DNA of 64,000 nt from Klenkia soli (lineage in GTDB: Bacteria > Actinomycetota > Actinomycetes > Mycobacteriales > Geodermatophilaceae): assembly GCF_900103975.1 (NCBI RefSeq), contig NZ_FNIR01000001.1, positions 310,001 to 374,000 of the forward strand, given 5' to 3'. A program made the position numbers and the translations under genes. Every line of letters begins with the position of its first letter. Position 1 is the stretch's first letter. Below, one piece after another: positions 18,041-40,207 of the stretch. Under the pieces are notes generated by a model, which saw only the letters and a program-made list of their open reading frames with translations, did not search any database and was not told the origin of the DNA.

Positions 18041-19119
18041 CCCTCGTGAGCGTCGAGCAGATGGCGGGGCTGGAGCCCGGGGGCGACCCCGACCGGGCTC
18101 CGGTCCGCGTGCCCCGGCGCGACCTGTCCGGCCTCCGCAAGGCCGCCCTCTTCCTGGCCCAGATGAGCCGCGAGGAGGCCGGCGCGGTCATGGCGCAGCT
18201 GACGGCGGCCGAGATCGACGCGCTGACCGGTGAGCTCATGCGGCTCAAGGACGTCGCCCCGGTGGACGTCCAGGACGTGCTGTTCGAGTTCCACGACCGG
18301 ATGGTCAACCCGCCGGCGCTGGGCTCGGGCGGCGTCGACTTCGCGCGCGAGGCCCTCACCGCGGGGCTGGGCGACGCCGAGGCCGAGGCCGTCCTCGGTC
18401 GGCTGCAGACCGTCTACGTGGACCCGCCCTTCACCGGGCTGCGCAACGCCGACACCCGTCAGCTGCTGTCGTTCCTCCGCGAGGAGCACCCGCAGATCAT
18501 CGCGCTGGTGCTCGCGCACCTGCCCGCCCCGCAGGCCGCCGAGCTCATGAGCCGGTTGCTGCCGGAGCGGCAGGCCGACGTCGCGCTGCGGATCGCCATG
18601 ATGGACCGCACCTCCCCCGAGGTCGTCCGCCTGGTCGAGGACGAGATCAGCCGGCGCATGGGATCCCTCCTGGCCAGCCCCGAGCTGTCCTCCGCGGGCG
18701 GCGTCGAGACCCTGGTCGAGATCATCAACCGCGCCTCCCGGCCCACCGAGAAGTCGATCCTGGAGTCGCTGGCCAGCACCGACCCGGACCTCGCCGAGCG
18801 CGTGCGCTCGCAGATGTTCCTGTTCGAGGACATCGTCATCGTCGACGACCGGTCCATGCAGCTGGTCCTCCGCGAGGTGGCCGCCGCCGACCTGGCCGCC
18901 GCGCTCAAGGGCGTGCGGGACGACGTCCGCGACAAGGTCATGCGCAACCTGTCCGAGCGCGCGGCCCTGGACCTCCAGGACGAGATCGAGCTGCTCGGCC
19001 CGGTCCGCGCCGCGGCGGTCGGCGAGGCGCAGGCCCGCGTCGTCGCGGTCCTCCGCACGATGGAGGAGTCCGGTCAGATCGTGATCGACCGAGGGGGTGA
19101 CGACGATCTCATCGCCTGA
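18037..19119 (+). CDS. fliG: Flagellar motor switch protein FliG
   Basis: FliG is the rotor protein that receives torque from MotA. The N-terminal part (LRKAALFLAQMSREEAGAVM) binds FliF. The middle has EEHPQIIALVLAHLPAPQAA, the FliG EHPQ motif that binds FliM. The C-terminal part (VEDEISRRMGSL, FEDIVIVDDRSMQLVLREVA, MRNLSERAALDLQDEIELLG) carries the torque helix. At 360 residues there is a short extra N-terminus (about 25 residues). The ATG overlaps the fliF stop (ATGA). Confidence 0.95.
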   Translation: MTLVSVEQMAGLEPGGDPDRAPVRVPRRDLSGLRKAALFLAQMSREEAGAVMAQLTAAEIDALTGELMRLKDVAPVDVQDVLFEFHDRMVNPPALGSGGVDFAREALTAGLGDAEAEAVLGRLQTVYVDPPFTGLRNADTRQLLSFLREEHPQIIALVLAHLPAPQAAELMSRLLPERQADVALRIAMMDRTSPEVVRLVEDEISRRMGSLLASPELSSAGGVETLVEIINRASRPTEKSILESLASTDPDLAERVRSQMFLFEDIVIVDDRSMQLVLREVAAADLAAALKGVRDDVRDKVMRNLSERAALDLQDEIELLGPVRAAAVGEAQARVVAVLRTMEESGQIVIDRGGDDDLIA

Positions 19120-33989: not shown

Positions 33990-36020
33990 GTGAAGTGGAC
34001 GAAGGCAGCCGTGCCGATCGGCGTGGTGTCGATCGTGCTGATGCTCGTCGTGCCGATGCCGGCGGTGGTGCTGGACCTGCTCATCGGGATGAACATCGCG
34101 GCGTCGCTGCTGATCCTGCTGGTGGCGATGTCCATCAAGCGCCCGCTGGACTTCGCCGTCTTCCCCTCCGCGATCCTCATCGCGACGCTGCTGCGCCTGG
34201 CGCTGAACGTCTCCTCCACCCGGCTCGTGCTCTCCGACGGCTACGCCGGTGCGGTGATCGAGGCGTTCGGCCACTTCGTCATCGGTGGCTCGCTGGTCGT
34301 CGGCCTGGTGGTCTTCCTGATCCTCGTGGTCATCCAGTTCGTCGTCATCACCAAGGGTGCCGAGCGCGTGGCCGAGGTCGGCGCCCGCTTCACCCTGGAC
34401 GCGATGCCCGGCAAGCAGATGGCCATCGACGCCGACCTGAACGCCGGGTTGATCACCGAGGCCCAGGCCCGCAAGCGCCGGGCCGACGTCACCGCCGAGG
34501 CCGACTTCTACGGCTCGATGGACGGTGCCAGCAAGTTCGTCAAGGGCGACGCGATCGCGGCGATCATCATCGTGCTGGTCAACCTCGTCGGCGGCCTGAC
34601 CATCGGCATGGTGCAGAACGGGATGCCGATCGGCGAGGCGGTCAGCACCTACTCGCTGCTGGCCGTCGGCGACGGCCTGGTCTCGATGGTGCCGGCGCTG
34701 CTGCTCTCGACCGCCACCGGCATCGTGGTCACCCGCTCGGCCGCCGACGGCGACCTGGGCAGCGACATGATGGCCCAGCTCGGCCGCACCAAGCAGCCGT
34801 TGCGGATCGCCGGCGGGGCGCTGGTCGCGCTGGGCCTCATCCCGGGTCTGCCGAAGCTGCCGTTCCTGCTCGCCGGTGGGCTCTTCCTGCTCCTCGCGTC
34901 GCGGGTCGACGAGAACCCCCCGGTCGAGGAGGAGCCGGTCGCCGCCGCGGACGAGCCCTCGCCGGACTCCCCCGAGGCGATCGCCGAGAAGATGCGGGTG
35001 GACCCCCTCGAGCTGGAGGTCGCCTTCGACCTGGTCGAGCTGGTCGACACCGCCCGCGGCGGCGACCTGCTGGACCGGGTGAAGGCCCTGCGCCGCAAGG
35101 TCGCCATGGACACCGGCCTGGTCATCCCGCTGGTGCGCACCCGGGACAACCTGGACCTGCCGGCCTCCCAGTACGTGGTGTGGCTCAACGGCGTCCCGGT
35201 CGCCAAGGGGACGTCGCCGGCCGGCACCGTGCTGGCCATCGGCGACTCCCTGGACGGGCTGCCGGGGAAGCCCACGCGTGAGCCGGTCTTCGGCCTGGCC
35301 GCCAAGTGGGTGCCCGTCGAGCTGCAGCGCCAGGCCGAGATGGCCGGGGCAACCGTCGTCGACCGCTCGTCGGTCATCACCACGCACCTGGCCGAGGTCG
35401 TGCGCCAGAACGCCGCCCAGCTCCTGGGCCGGGAGGACGTCAAGTTGTTGCTGGAGATGGTGCGCCGCTCGCACCCGGTGGTCGTCGAGGAGCTGACCGG
35501 CGCCTCCCTGACCCTCGGCCAGGTGCAGCAGGTGCTGCAGGCCCTGCTGGAGGAGGGCGTCTCGATCCGCGACCTGGTCCGGATCTTCGAGGCCCTGTCG
35601 CTGCGCGCCAAGAGCGCCACCGACCTGGACAGCCTGGTCGAGGCCGCCCGCGGCGCCCTGGGCCCGGCGATCAGCCAGCCCTACGTCACCGCCGACGAGA
35701 AGCTCTACGTGATGACCCTCGACCCGGGCTTCGAGCAGCGCCTGCTGTCCGCCGTCCGGCAGGGCGAGCAGGGCGCGGTCCTGGCCCTGGACGCCGGGAT
35801 GGTCGACGCCCTCGCCCGCGGGGCCAGCGACCTCCTCGACGACGCCGAGAAGCTGGGCATCACCGCACTGCTCGTCTGCTCCCCCCAGGTCCGCCCTGCC
35901 CTGTCCCGGCTCATGCGCCAGGTCGTGGCCCGCTGCACGGTCATCTCCTACTCGGAGGTCTCCCGTACGGCCCAGATCGAGACGATCGGAGTGGTGAACG
36001 GTGCCGTCGCACTCGCCTGA
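33990..36020 (+). CDS. flhA: Flagellar export gate protein FlhA
   Basis: FlhA is the large export-gate protein whose cytoplasmic ring docks substrates and chaperones. The N-terminal half has about eight membrane segments and the FHIPEP-family stretch KRPLDFAVFPSAILIATLLR LALNVSSTRLVL, plus TKGAERVAEVGARFTLDAMP GKQMAIDADL. The cytoplasmic domain starts near residue 330. At 676 residues it is standard. No Shine-Dalgarno sequence is seen before the GTG. The gene overlaps the FlhF-like gene by 20 nt. Confidence 0.96.
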   Translation: MKWTKAAVPIGVVSIVLMLVVPMPAVVLDLLIGMNIAASLLILLVAMSIKRPLDFAVFPSAILIATLLRLALNVSSTRLVLSDGYAGAVIEAFGHFVIGGSLVVGLVVFLILVVIQFVVITKGAERVAEVGARFTLDAMPGKQMAIDADLNAGLITEAQARKRRADVTAEADFYGSMDGASKFVKGDAIAAIIIVLVNLVGGLTIGMVQNGMPIGEAVSTYSLLAVGDGLVSMVPALLLSTATGIVVTRSAADGDLGSDMMAQLGRTKQPLRIAGGALVALGLIPGLPKLPFLLAGGLFLLLASRVDENPPVEEEPVAAADEPSPDSPEAIAEKMRVDPLELEVAFDLVELVDTARGGDLLDRVKALRRKVAMDTGLVIPLVRTRDNLDLPASQYVVWLNGVPVAKGTSPAGTVLAIGDSLDGLPGKPTREPVFGLAAKWVPVELQRQAEMAGATVVDRSSVITTHLAEVVRQNAAQLLGREDVKLLLEMVRRSHPVVVEELTGASLTLGQVQQVLQALLEEGVSIRDLVRIFEALSLRAKSATDLDSLVEAARGALGPAISQPYVTADEKLYVMTLDPGFEQRLLSAVRQGEQGAVLALDAGMVDALARGASDLLDDAEKLGITALLVCSPQVRPALSRLMRQVVARCTVISYSEVSRTAQIETIGVVNGAVALA

Positions 36021-39000
36021 ACCGCCGTCCGGGAACACCCGTGACGAAGCCATCGCGGCTGCCCGCGAGGAGTACGGCTCGGACGTCCGCATCCGGGGCG
36101 TGCGACGCATCCGCAGCGGTGGGGTGGCCGGCTTCTTCAGCCAGGAGCGGTTCGTCGCCGACGTCGTGGTGCCCGGGCTCGGCGACGCCGACGTCCCGGC
36201 CGCCCCCTCCAAGGCGCCCACGACGACCTCCTCGAAGGCACCTGCGGCGACCCGCCCGAAGGCCACCGGCAAGGGCAAGGTCGGTCCCGCCCGCGCCGCC
36301 ACGCCCACCGTGGTCGCCGAGCTGCCCCGGACCGCCGCCCCGGCCGCCGACGAGCCGGCCGACCGCTGGCCGTCCTCCGGCCTGTCGGTCGACGACCTGC
36401 TGGAGGTCGCCCTCCAGGTCCGCGGCGCGCAGCGGGCCGCCGACGACGCCCCGACCAGCGTGCTGCCCGTGGTGGACCCGGTCGACGAGCTGGCCGAGCT
36501 GCTGGGCCCGGGCAGCTCCGACGTCGCCGTCTACTCCCCCGCGTCCGTCGCGCGCCCGGCCGCCGCACCTGTCCCGCGGCCCGTCGCGGCCCCGGTCGCC
36601 GAGCGCGCACCGGCCCTCGCACCGCAGGCGCCGGCGACCCCCTCGGCCCCGCGCACCCTCGCCACCCGTCGCGAGACCGACCCGGTCCCGCCGGCGGCAC
36701 CGGCGTGGGAGCGGACCTCGCGGTCCGAGCGCCCCGCGGCCGCGGCGACGTCGGCACCGACCCCGGACGACGCGGACGGCGACACCCCGCCCTCGCCGTT
36801 CGCGGCGGCCCTGATGCGCGTGGTGACCCAGGACGACGAGGTGCAGGCCGCCGTGGCCGACGCCGAGGAGCACGAGGAGCAGCGGGTGGCCGCCGAGCAG
36901 GACGACGTCGCGACGACCACGGGGTCGGCGCCGACCGCGGCGCCCCCGCCCCCGGGGGACCGCGCCGCCGCGGTGCGCGCCGCCGCCCTGCGCGCCGAGG
37001 CGGAGGCCGTGGCCGCCGCCCGCGCCGACATCGACCGCGCCGAGGCAGCGGCCGAGGTCGCCGTCTCGGCCCGGCCCGCCGCGGTGACCCCGCAGGGCGC
37101 CCCCACCCGCACCGTGGAGCAGCGCCGGGAGGCCGCCCGCGCCCGGGCCGAGGCCCGGCGCAGTGCCCGCTCCGCCGTGGCGGACGCCGGTCCGGCCCCC
37201 GCCGCCGACGCGACCCCGGTCGCTCCCGCCGCGGCGGCCCCCACCTGGGACGCGACCAGCATCATCGAGCTCGCCCCCCGCGCCGGCCGTCCCGCCGCCG
37301 CCCAGCGCCCGCCGGCGCCGGTGGCCACCCGGGTGACCGCCGCGCGGGCCGGCGCGGCGCAGCTGCGTGAGGCGGCCATCCGCGCCGCCGGTGAGCTGGC
37401 CGAACGGCAGGTCGGCGAGCAGCGGACCGCGCCGGACCTGCTCGACGACTTCGTCGACCCGGAGCTCGCCGGCACCGCACGTCCGGCCGAGCCCTCCCTC
37501 GGTGACCGCGCGGCCCGGCTGCGCTCGGTGCTGGCTGCGGCCACCCCGCCGGCCGAGCTGCCCGCCGCCGGTACGGGTGCCGCCCCGGCCCGGCGCAGCC
37601 TGCCCGCCCTCCCGCCGTCGGGCACGACCCCCGCCGCCGAGCAGGCCGCCGCCGAGCAGGCCGAGCGCGCCGCCGTGGAAGCTGCGCGTCTCGCAGCCGA
37701 GCAGGCCGAGGCCCAGCGGGTCGCCGCCGAGCAGGCGGAGGCCCAGCGGGCAGCCGCCGAGCAGGCGGAGGCCGAGCGCATCGCGGCCGAGCGCATGGCG
37801 GCCGAGCAGGCCGAGGCCCGCCGGGCCGCGGCTCGGCAGGCCGCCGCCGAGGCGGCCCGCGTCGAGGCCCGTCGCATCGAGACCGAGCTGGCCGAGGCGC
37901 GCCGCGCGGCCGCCGCCGAGGCCGCTGCCGAGGCCCAGCGGGCGGAGGCCCAGCGCACCGCGGCGGCCGAGGCGCAGCGCCTCGCCGCCGAGCAGGCCGC
38001 CACCGAGCGGGCCGCCGCCCTGCGCGTCGCCGCCGAGCGGGCCGCCGCCCAGCGGGTCGAGGCCCAGCGCCGTGCCGTCGCGGAGGCCGAGCGGATCGCC
38101 GCCGAGGCCGAGCGGACCGCTGTCGCAGAGGCCCAGCGCATCGCTGCCGAGCGGGTTGCCGCCGAGCAGATCGCCACCGCCCGGGCCGAGGCCCAGCGCG
38201 CCGCGGCCGAGGCGGAGCGGGTCGCCGCAGCGGAGCGTGCTGCGGCGCACGCCGCTCGCGTCGACGCCGAGGCCGAGCGGGAGGCCGAGGTCCGGGCCGC
38301 CGCGGAGCAGGCCGGCCCGACCCTCGTCGAGGCCGGACGTCGCCGCACCCGGGCCGAGCGCCGGGAAGCCGCCGAGCAGGCCCGGCACGCCACCCCCGCG
38401 CCGATCGGCGTCGCGCCCCTCTCCGTCGCTCCGGCAGCCACCCCCGTCGCCGCCGAGGTCGACCCGCTCTGGGGCACCCCGGTGCGCCGGTCGGTGGAGG
38501 TGGCCGGGATCGACGGCGGACGGCACCGCGGTGCGGCCGCGGCCGCCCCCGGGACCGGCGCCGACGTCCCCGCCGACGCGGAGCCGGTCGTCGGCGTCGT
38601 GGTGGACGCCCCCCGGCCGAGCTACTCGGCCGGCTCCCGGTACGACGAGGTGCTCTTCGGCTCGCGCTCGGCGTCCCGCGGTGCGCAGCCGGACCCCCTG
38701 GAGGCCCTGCGCGCAGCGGCCCTCGCCGGTGGTGCGGTGTCCCCGCGCCGCCGGCGCGCGGAGGCCGCCGGCCGGCACCGCACGCTGCCCACCCAGGTCG
38801 ACCTGCCCGTGGTCGGCGCGGGACGGCTGACCGCGCTGGACGACCCGGCCGAGGCGACCTCGGGCTTCATCGAGGCGCTGCAGGCCGTGGCCGACAGCGA
38901 CTTCGTGACCGCCCCCGCACTGGCACCGGAGGTCTCGGACGTGCTGGTGCAGGAGATGGCCCACGAGATGGCCGCCGGGATGGCCGAGGAGCTGGCCCGC

Positions 39001-39891
39001 ACGGCCAGCGACCCGTCCCCCGGCGCCGTCCTCTCCTCCGTGGCCTCCGCCCCGCCCGTCGTGCGGGGACCCCGCCCGTCGGTCCCGACCGGGCCGACCG
39101 GTGGTGCACGGGCGCTGCCGCCGCACCCCTCCACCCGGATGCGCGGCACCCGCGGCGACTCCGGTGACGGCTGGGCGACCATCACCCACCTGACCCCCGT
39201 GACCGACGGCCCCGGCCCGGCCGAGGGCGGGCCCGCCGGGCTGGCCGCCCTGGGCGTGCCGCCGTCGGTGCTGGGCGCCGGCTTCGCCGCCGAGGCTTCG
39301 CGCCGCGGCACCTTCGCCGCGCTGGCCTCGGCCCTCGGGCGCGCCCTCCCGCCCGCACCGGCGATCCCGTCCGAGCCCGGCGACGTCCTCGTCGTGGTCG
39401 GCCCCGGGGCCGAGGCGCTGGGTGCGGCCCGCGCCCTGGCCGTCGCGCTGCGGCTGGACCCCTCCCGGGTGCTGTGGTGCACGCGGGGTCCGCTGGCCGG
39501 TCTCGCCGGTGCCGACGTCCAGGTGTCCGGGGCCGCCGCGGCCGCGGACGTCCGGGCGCTGCTCGCCGGTGCCGACGTCCCCACGGTGATCGCGGTCGAC
39601 GTCCCCCTCGGGGACGCCGGCGGCGCCTGGGCCGCGCAGATGGTGCAGGCGTGGGACGCGACCGCCGTCTGGGGCGTCCTGGACTCCACCCGCAAGCCGG
39701 CCGCCCTGCGCAGCTGGTTGGCCGGTCTGCCGCGGGTGGACGCGGTCGTGGTCACCGACACCGACGCCGCTCCTGACCCGGCCGCGCTCCTCGAGGGCCT
39801 GCCGGTGCCGGTGGCCGTCGTCGACGGCGCCCGGGCCACCCCGCACCGGTGGGCCGCGCTGCTCTGCGAGCGGCTGGCCGGGCGGCAATGA
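36001..39891 (+). CDS. flhF: Giant FlhF-like protein with degenerate SRP-GTPase domain
   Basis: FlhF places flagella and is an SRP-type GTPase. Here residues about 12-55 match the FlhF N-terminus (TRDEAIAAAREEYGSDVRIR, then SGGVAGFFSQERFVADVVV). Residues about 1083-1296 keep the order of the SRP NG domain, but the motifs are lost: the P-loop position reads GDVLVVVGPGAEALGAARA with no GKT, the DTAG position reads AVDVPLGDAGGA, and the TKLD position reads VVVTDTDAAPDP. About 1000 residues lie between, disordered at first and then a long Ala/Glu/Arg/Gln coiled coil (about 545-776). At 1296 residues it is about three times the usual length. It starts inside flhA and overlaps the next gene (ATGA). 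No flhG follows. It is probably a non-GTPase scaffold. Confidence 0.7.
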   Translation: MPSHSPEPPSGNTRDEAIAAAREEYGSDVRIRGVRRIRSGGVAGFFSQERFVADVVVPGLGDADVPAAPSKAPTTTSSKAPAATRPKATGKGKVGPARAATPTVVAELPRTAAPAADEPADRWPSSGLSVDDLLEVALQVRGAQRAADDAPTSVLPVVDPVDELAELLGPGSSDVAVYSPASVARPAAAPVPRPVAAPVAERAPALAPQAPATPSAPRTLATRRETDPVPPAAPAWERTSRSERPAAAATSAPTPDDADGDTPPSPFAAALMRVVTQDDEVQAAVADAEEHEEQRVAAEQDDVATTTGSAPTAAPPPPGDRAAAVRAAALRAEAEAVAAARADIDRAEAAAEVAVSARPAAVTPQGAPTRTVEQRREAARARAEARRSARSAVADAGPAPAADATPVAPAAAAPTWDATSIIELAPRAGRPAAAQRPPAPVATRVTAARAGAAQLREAAIRAAGELAERQVGEQRTAPDLLDDFVDPELAGTARPAEPSLGDRAARLRSVLAAATPPAELPAAGTGAAPARRSLPALPPSGTTPAAEQAAAEQAERAAVEAARLAAEQAEAQRVAAEQAEAQRAAAEQAEAERIAAERMAAEQAEARRAAARQAAAEAARVEARRIETELAEARRAAAAEAAAEAQRAEAQRTAAAEAQRLAAEQAATERAAALRVAAERAAAQRVEAQRRAVAEAERIAAEAERTAVAEAQRIAAERVAAEQIATARAEAQRAAAEAERVAAAERAAAHAARVDAEAEREAEVRAAAEQAGPTLVEAGRRRTRAERREAAEQARHATPAPIGVAPLSVAPAATPVAAEVDPLWGTPVRRSVEVAGIDGGRHRGAAAAAPGTGADVPADAEPVVGVVVDAPRPSYSAGSRYDEVLFGSRSASRGAQPDPLEALRAAALAGGAVSPRRRRAEAAGRHRTLPTQVDLPVVGAGRLTALDDPAEATSGFIEALQAVADSDFVTAPALAPEVSDVLVQEMAHEMAAGMAEELARTASDPSPGAVLSSVASAPPVVRGPRPSVPTGPTGGARALPPHPSTRMRGTRGDSGDGWATITHLTPVTDGPGPAEGGPAGLAALGVPPSVLGAGFAAEASRRGTFAALASALGRALPPAPAIPSEPGDVLVVVGPGAEALGAARALAVALRLDPSRVLWCTRGPLAGLAGADVQVSGAAAAADVRALLAGADVPTVIAVDVPLGDAGGAWAAQMVQAWDATAVWGVLDSTRKPAALRSWLAGLPRVDAVVVTDTDAAPDPAALLEGLPVPVAVVDGARATPHRWAALLCERLAGRQ

Positions 39892-40112
39892 GCCCGCTGC
39901 GCTGGGACGTCCTCGGCGCAGCCCTGCTCTTCTCGCTGCCGGTCCTGCTGCTGGGTGTGACGGACGCGTTGAGCACCGACGAGATGGTCGACCGGCTGCC
40001 GTGGTGCCTGCTGGCCGGCTACGTCGCGAGCACGGTGCTGCGCCTGGTGCTCCCCGCGCCGAAGCCGGAGCCACCCCGCCGCCGTCCCCGCCGGCCACCC
40101 CCCGAGGACTGA
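39888..40112 (+). CDS. Small membrane protein coupled to the FlhF-like gene
   Basis: A 74-residue protein with two hydrophobic segments (VLGAALLFSLPVLLLGVTDA, about 7-26, and PWCLLAGYVASTVLRLVLPA, about 36-55) and a Pro/Arg-rich tail (PPRRRPRRPPPED). The ATG overlaps the stop of the FlhF-like gene, so the two are co-translated. I know no family. It could recruit the FlhF-like protein to the membrane, but this is inference. A very strong hairpin ends the flagellar cluster after it. Confidence 0.75.
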   Translation: MSPLRWDVLGAALLFSLPVLLLGVTDALSTDEMVDRLPWCLLAGYVASTVLRLVLPAPKPEPPRRRPRRPPPED

Positions 40113-40127
40113 CCGCCGCCCAGCGTT

Positions 40128-40207
40128 GATCAGGGGGGTGCACGGTCGTCCGTCCTCCTCCACCGACCCTGGTGGAGGAGGACAGCACGTCGTGCACCCC
40201 CCTGATC
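40128..40207. terminator. Nested 80-nt double hairpin between convergent genes
   Basis: An outer 17-bp perfect stem (GATCAGGGGGGTGCACG at 40128-40144 with its complement at 40191-40207) encloses an inner 13-bp perfect stem (GTCCTCCTCCACC at 40152-40164 with 40171-40183) and a 6-nt loop. It lies between the small membrane gene and phoH, which converge, so it is a bidirectional terminator. The TGATCAGG end resembles the palindromes at 2442 and 3708. Confidence 0.8.

Follow-up and report, generated by a model that had tools for sequence, protein, structure and literature searches.

A giant flhF-derived pseudo-GTPase encoded behind flhA in Klenkia soli, probably a GTP-independent tether in flagellar assembly

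What is the role of a protein that is encoded at the flhF position and keeps both ends of FlhF, while the GTPase motifs of FlhF are gone? FlhF and FlhG together form a widespread switch for flagellar site and number, in which FlhG is the partner and the GTPase activator of FlhF. The question is raised by a gene at 36001..39891 (+ strand; 1296 amino acids, GTG start) of the window, i.e., the whole 64,000-nucleotide stretch of Klenkia soli (Geodermatophilaceae) DNA analysed here. An earlier note, made from the sequence of the window alone, had described a giant FlhF-like pseudo-GTPase at this place, and this description holds, as the gene is real, both of its ends are FlhF-like and the motifs are gone. 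The gene is probably an actinomycete flhF orthologue that has turned into a pseudo-GTPase and acts as a GTP-independent tether in flagellar assembly. The nature of the ends, the predicted fold, the motif loss, the flhF position, the selection on the gene and the absence of FlhG are established by sequence and structure prediction, as set out below.

Residues 1-60 (36001..36180, + strand) form the FliG-interaction domain of FlhF (FID). In profile–profile comparisons, the N-terminal profile of the actinomycete homologues matches that of canonical FlhF at E 2e-10 (E 2e-7 with the Geodermatophilaceae N-terminal set alone), bearing out the earlier claim of about 55 FlhF-like residues at this end. 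A GGVAGFF motif in the FID is common to the window protein and some canonical actinobacterial FlhF proteins in the motif alignment. In addition, a combined FID profile matches PDB 9en1, an FlhF fragment, at E 2e-7, whereas phmmer with a single Cellulomonas FID found no match in the PDB. In a model of a small Cellulomonas homologue, the FID is predicted as strand-helix-strand-strand, with a predicted local distance difference test score (pLDDT) of >90 over the first 30 residues and ~80 thereafter; three strands and one helix are likewise described for residues 1-44 of FlhF from Shewanella (PMC11236974). An NCBIfam search of the window protein gave only a weak FlhF match at residues 11-85, and against the curated NCBIfam FlhF model the protein scores 10.4 bits, which is below the cut-off of 174 bits. 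All 30 small homologues match TIGR03499 FlhF with E values of 0.01 or lower; the member displayed reaches 29 bits (cut-off 174) via its FID.

The opposite end of the protein, residues 1075-1296 (39223..39888, + strand), is a pseudo-NG domain. The AlphaFold2 model of these residues, built on a 47-sequence alignment, has a pLDDT of 94.9 and a predicted template modelling score of 0.91, and its best solved matches over the whole domain are S. putrefaciens FlhF 8r9r (Z 17.3, 215 residues) and B. subtilis FlhF 2px3 (Z 16.7), both of which are ~35 residues longer. The same pseudo-NG domain is seen in the model of the small Cellulomonas homologue. The last ~210 residues, noted earlier as FlhF-like, are thus predicted to adopt the NG fold typical of signal recognition particle (SRP) GTPases. 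The NG domains of FtsY and Ffh tie with FlhF as structural matches (Z about 15-16.6); however, the sequence profile is nearer to FlhF, the actinomycete C-terminal profile matching FlhF at E 4e-6 and FtsY/Ffh at E 0.055, with column-shuffled or reversed C-terminal profiles as controls giving E 0.5 or worse. The Geodermatophilaceae C-terminal set alone reaches FlhF at E 0.0014 only, so that the wider actinomycete set was needed; with the window protein included, it aligns with the small homologues at E 2e-42. A full-length profile of the small homologues matches canonical actinobacterial FlhF at E 1.2e-11, and the positions of the P-loop, the 'SATTK' strand and TKLDET align with degenerate counterparts. 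This link came from profile–profile comparison and predicted structure, and plain sequence searches miss it: a Pfam search of the window protein gave no match, and a PDB search with the C-terminal domain profile found no SRP GTPase. The genome also has two SRP GTPases that score over the cut-off, presumably Ffh and FtsY; both are separate from the flhF-like gene.

The nucleotide motifs are missing from this fold. Where GPTGxGKT is expected, residues 1134-1141 (39400..39423, + strand) read GPGAEALG in the profile alignment, and in the model helix 1 follows strand 1 at a distance of two residues, too close for a P-loop to fit. The window protein and 97/97 homologues lack Walker A, DTAG and TKLD, all three of which are present in each of the 14 canonical FlhF proteins tested. 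The earlier note had claimed exactly this, a loss of the P-loop lysine, DTAG and TKLD with the fold kept, and had proposed that homologues behind flhA in actinobacteria be checked for GKT. Neither of the two outcomes that it named as refuting was obtained, since the NG fold is present and a correct alignment confirms that the motifs are missing; moreover, none of the 97 has kept GKT. The protein is therefore filed as FlhF-derived but not as an SRP GTPase, since the P-loop lysine and the motif set of the active SRP GTPase superfamily are absent. Conserved residues are left near the old nucleotide site (G60 of the model and the motifs DATRK and DGxPAT), and they could be read as a sign that some other small ligand is still, or once again, bound there by the pseudo-NG domain. 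However, the phosphate-wrapping loop is gone in the model, with helix 1 following directly on strand 1, and packing and partner contacts can explain the conserved residues; little credence is given to such a ligand.

The partner of the switch is missing as well. A FlhG-type gene with a DQAxxLR motif adjoins 15/15 canonical FlhF genes over the cut-off, whereas no adjoining FlhG was found at the degenerate or semi-degenerate loci of other classes or at 75 actinomycete loci. The single DQAxxLR pattern match, at locus L124, lies in a 932-residue frame on the opposite strand that lacks a Walker motif, and was taken for chance. The window holds no MinD-like open reading frame (ORF), and a FlhG search of the Klenkia genome returned generic MinD/ParA matches of ~40 bits only, as in other genomes of the order that lack a convincing homologue. 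The absence of FlhG noted earlier thus extends from the window to the neighbourhood and the genome, and it goes together with the loss of the GTPase. Because forms that retain the P-loop also occur without FlhG, FlhG may have been lost before the GTPase.

With its classical partner gone, the protein might instead be a repurposed FlhF that regulates flagella rather than placing them, e.g., as a FliG sink or as a partner of the adjoining small membrane protein. The gene for the latter (39888..40112, + strand; 74 amino acids, two predicted membrane helices, no Pfam match) shares an ATGA with the flhF-like gene, overlapping its stop codon, and follows this gene in nearly all Geodermatophilaceae loci. 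However, Cellulomonas-type loci have csrA in the next position instead of the two-helix gene, and the FID is conserved, its known role being the recruitment of FliG for assembly (PMC11236974). A regulatory role of this kind is considered unlikely.

The position of the gene is that of flhF. The gene for the export gate protein FlhA (33990..36020, + strand; Pfam FHIPEP E 6.6e-252) lies directly 5′ of it, and the 3′ end of flhA overlaps its start by 20 nt, as read directly, with a GGAG ~9 nt before the GTG start, within the flhA end. Canonical FlhF likewise adjoins flhA, and the end of flhA meets the start of the FlhF-like gene in 74/74 homologue loci holding flhA. An antisense ORF of 1418 amino acids mirrors the gene (35941-40197, − strand) and appears to be a side effect of high G+C content and codon-position bias; with such a frame over the same DNA in a G+C-rich genome, ORF length alone is weak evidence for the flhF-like gene. 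The + frame of 36001-39891 is instead taken as coding because of its homology, its position and a ratio of nonsynonymous to synonymous substitution rates (dN/dS) that stays below 1 in the two end domains whichever Klenkia is compared. That homologues occupy this position wherever a locus holds flhA, and that dN/dS is well below 1 at both ends, argues that the gene is not a chance frame.

Among Klenkia, the four closest comparisons give a dN/dS of 0.09-0.19 for the pseudo-NG domain, 0.15-0.22 for the FID and 0.34-0.64 for the linker between them, which also carries many indels; two more distant Klenkia give higher values (pseudo-NG 0.32-0.45). The low values in both end domains indicate that the pseudo-GTPase is maintained and not decaying. 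A decaying remnant, whose function was lost with FlhG and which persists through its embedding in the operon while filling with low-complexity sequence, would fit the loosely constrained linker, the strong erosion of the gene in a few other lineages and its seeming outright loss in some flagellated actinomycetes. However, such decay is highly unlikely in view of the strong purifying selection on both ends that the close Klenkia comparisons show (dN/dS 0.09-0.22), the reading frames intact in nearly all homologues and an NG fold that is still predicted so confidently from 47 sequences. Moreover, the motif loss is old, corresponding to one change on the tree described below, so that decay would have ended long ago.

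The size of the protein is owed to its linker, residues 61-1074 (36181..39222, + strand), which begins as Ala/Pro-rich low-complexity sequence, continues with a Pro/Gly-free Ala/Glu/Arg stretch of 227 residues (residues 545-771; 37633..38313, + strand) and ends with ~300 further low-complexity residues. The Ala/Glu/Arg stretch is presumably helical, and its DNA is rich in tandem repeats of 15 bases and longer. The earlier note had described a disordered middle followed by a coiled coil, which agrees with the first two parts but omits the last ~300 residues. A comparable Pro/Gly-free stretch of 168-372 residues is found in Klenkia, Blastococcus, Modestobacter and Trujillonella, but not at that length in Geodermatophilus. 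One motif within the linker, residues 265-285 (36793..36855, + strand; PSPFAAALMRVV..., PSPFAAALxRMV), is kept in all Geodermatophilaceae aligned. Whole proteins measure 670-1660 amino acids in the Geodermatophilaceae and about 360-560 in most other actinomycetes, the small homologues (~360-560) being found in Planobispora, Planomonospora, Actinomadura, Motilibacter, Cellulomonas, Sanguibacter and others; canonical FlhF has about 390-460 amino acids in total. The two ends are indeed ~1,000 residues apart, as claimed earlier; however, since FlhF already has a linker, the supposed insertion is better read as a linker expansion. Thus, the giant linker of Klenkia is a lineage-specific, length-tolerant expansion of the native FlhF linker. 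The idea that it serves as a precise ruler was rejected for now, as length and indels vary freely in the family (proteins of 670-1660 amino acids).

Only this linker is local to the Klenkia lineage. Canonical FlhF over the cut-off was found in 0/395 genomes of the class and in 15/396 genomes of the phylum. Among 297 sampled genomes of the class, FlhA is present in 37 and the pseudo-FlhF in 23, all 23 of which fall within the 37; a diverged FID-type ORF stands after flhA in genomes G271 and G081, which gave no match in the scan, so 23/37 is a lower bound. Across the phylum, five states are found after flhA: canonical FlhF, P-loop kept, P-loop lost, C-terminus eroded and gene lost. Where the P-loop is kept, the DTAG position reads DTP or a similar sequence (families f74, f80 and f111); locus L183 (family f73) retains DTAG and scores below the FlhF cut-off. 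The actinomycetes and families f83 and f113 have lost the P-loop and kept the NG pattern, and a strongly eroded C-terminus stands behind the FID in families f99, f68 and f87. On the FlhA tree, which was built by a quick method, has some long branches and is not final, the P-loop state changes once. The sequences suggest on this tree that the GTPase was lost once, deep in the phylum, in an ancestor common to all sampled actinomycetes that keep the protein. The earlier attribution of the loss to "this lineage" is thus too narrow, the loss being older and wider. More than one loss of the P-loop, suggested by the very different C-termini in some lineages, was considered and set aside, since the tree needs one change only. 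Six loci of families f74 and f80 (L242, L243, L246, L251, L253 and L256) have a P-loop and a SKxD/TKxD-type motif, with DTPP replacing DTAG and no adjoining FlhG, and it is possible that such loci are intermediates of GTPase loss. Four loci of families f99, f87 and f68 (L245, L247, L252 and L255) have a FID followed by a C-terminus that gives no FlhF match (E 0.27) and has a pattern of its own, LHLVVGG...PLAVSW...LGYG.

How such a protein could work is suggested by Shewanella FlhF, whose FID binds FliG and whose NG domain contacts HubP, a polar landmark, apparently regardless of nucleotide, so that FlhF bridges both (PMC11236974). By analogy, the FID of the Klenkia protein would capture FliG, and with it FliF, and the pseudo-NG domain would bind a site-marking or membrane partner as the Shewanella domain binds HubP; a role in flagellar placement or number would follow the same model. 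The proposed FID partner is at hand, as the genome has one FliG, encoded in the same flagellar cluster as the flhF-like gene (C-terminal domain at 18763..19086, contig 328763-329086, + strand; PF01706 E 4.5e-36). The linker of ~1000 residues would add reach, perhaps with self-association via the 227-residue helix. Both systems would be two-ended tethers with FID and NG at the ends, but the Klenkia protein has neither a GTPase cycle nor FlhG, and without FlhG there is no release cycle driven by a GTPase activator, which would make the protein a static adaptor. The nucleotide-independent scaffold proposed earlier is therefore plausible, with the NG fold kept in the absence of nucleotide motifs and FlhG, whereas a span to the export gate finds no support, since the N-terminus is formed by the FID, for which FliG is the partner known from Shewanella (PMC11236974), and the linker length is variable. 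A more far-reaching version is put forward tentatively. A FlhF that works without GTP and FlhG might place or nucleate the flagella of actinomycetes; its NG domain would have been kept solely as a protein-binding module through a long radiation, and its FliG-binding end might, in the Geodermatophilaceae, stand up to tens of nanometres off by way of the ~1000-residue linker with its long helix.

Several observations weigh against a GTP-independent tether. Localisation of FlhF in P. aeruginosa and V. alginolyticus needs GTP binding, though not hydrolysis, and GTP binding promotes the FlhF–FliG interaction in P. aeruginosa (PMC12713375); a GTP-free FlhF must therefore differ from those models. 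Furthermore, the first FID strand is poorly conserved in the Geodermatophilaceae, and the gene has seemingly been lost in some flagellated actinomycetes, including nine family f41 genomes of the 37 with FlhA, so the protein is not needed everywhere.

Compared with known systems, the protein resembles FlhF (TIGR03499; 8r9r, 2px3, 2px0, 9en1) in its N-terminal FID, linker, C-terminal NG fold and gene position next to flhA, but differs in lacking Walker A, DTAG, TKLD and FlhG, in its ~1000-residue linker in Klenkia and in scoring far below the curated cut-off. Other pseudo-GTPase domains, e.g., those of p190RhoGAP, also reuse a GTPase fold without catalysis, although they belong to a different GTPase family. 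No description of a P-loop-less or pseudo-GTPase FlhF was found in the literature searched, in agreement with the earlier note, to which no described case was known. A survey of actinobacterial flagella stated that FlhF is absent from the later classes (PMC10746217). From their sequences, these classes appear to carry a cryptic FlhF, which was overlooked because its GTPase motifs are gone. With canonical, P-loop-retaining, P-loop-less, eroded and lost forms, one phylum holds a natural series. As the series pairs FlhG absence with GTPase loss, it makes a long-argued question testable, namely which tasks of FlhF depend on GTP and for which a tether is enough.

A few observations concern the surroundings of these loci. 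The FlhA of the window shares 94% identity with its counterpart in Klenkia marina; K. taihuensis is a further congener. In the five f41 genomes examined, which lack the FlhF-like gene, a small membrane protein similar to the 74-residue one of the window is encoded directly after flhA (5/5). A gene for a PilZ-domain (YcgR-like) protein directly follows the FlhF-like gene in two loci, from Planomonospora and another actinomycete (L096:6591-7268 and L093:6798-7463; Pfam PilZ E 4e-7 and 1e-6, respectively), and a small hydrophobic ORF comes next in related loci. Finally, L124 is filed as a metagenome-assembled genome of Proteobacteria; its FlhA falls among the Cellulomonadaceae on the tree, and it is probably misbinned.

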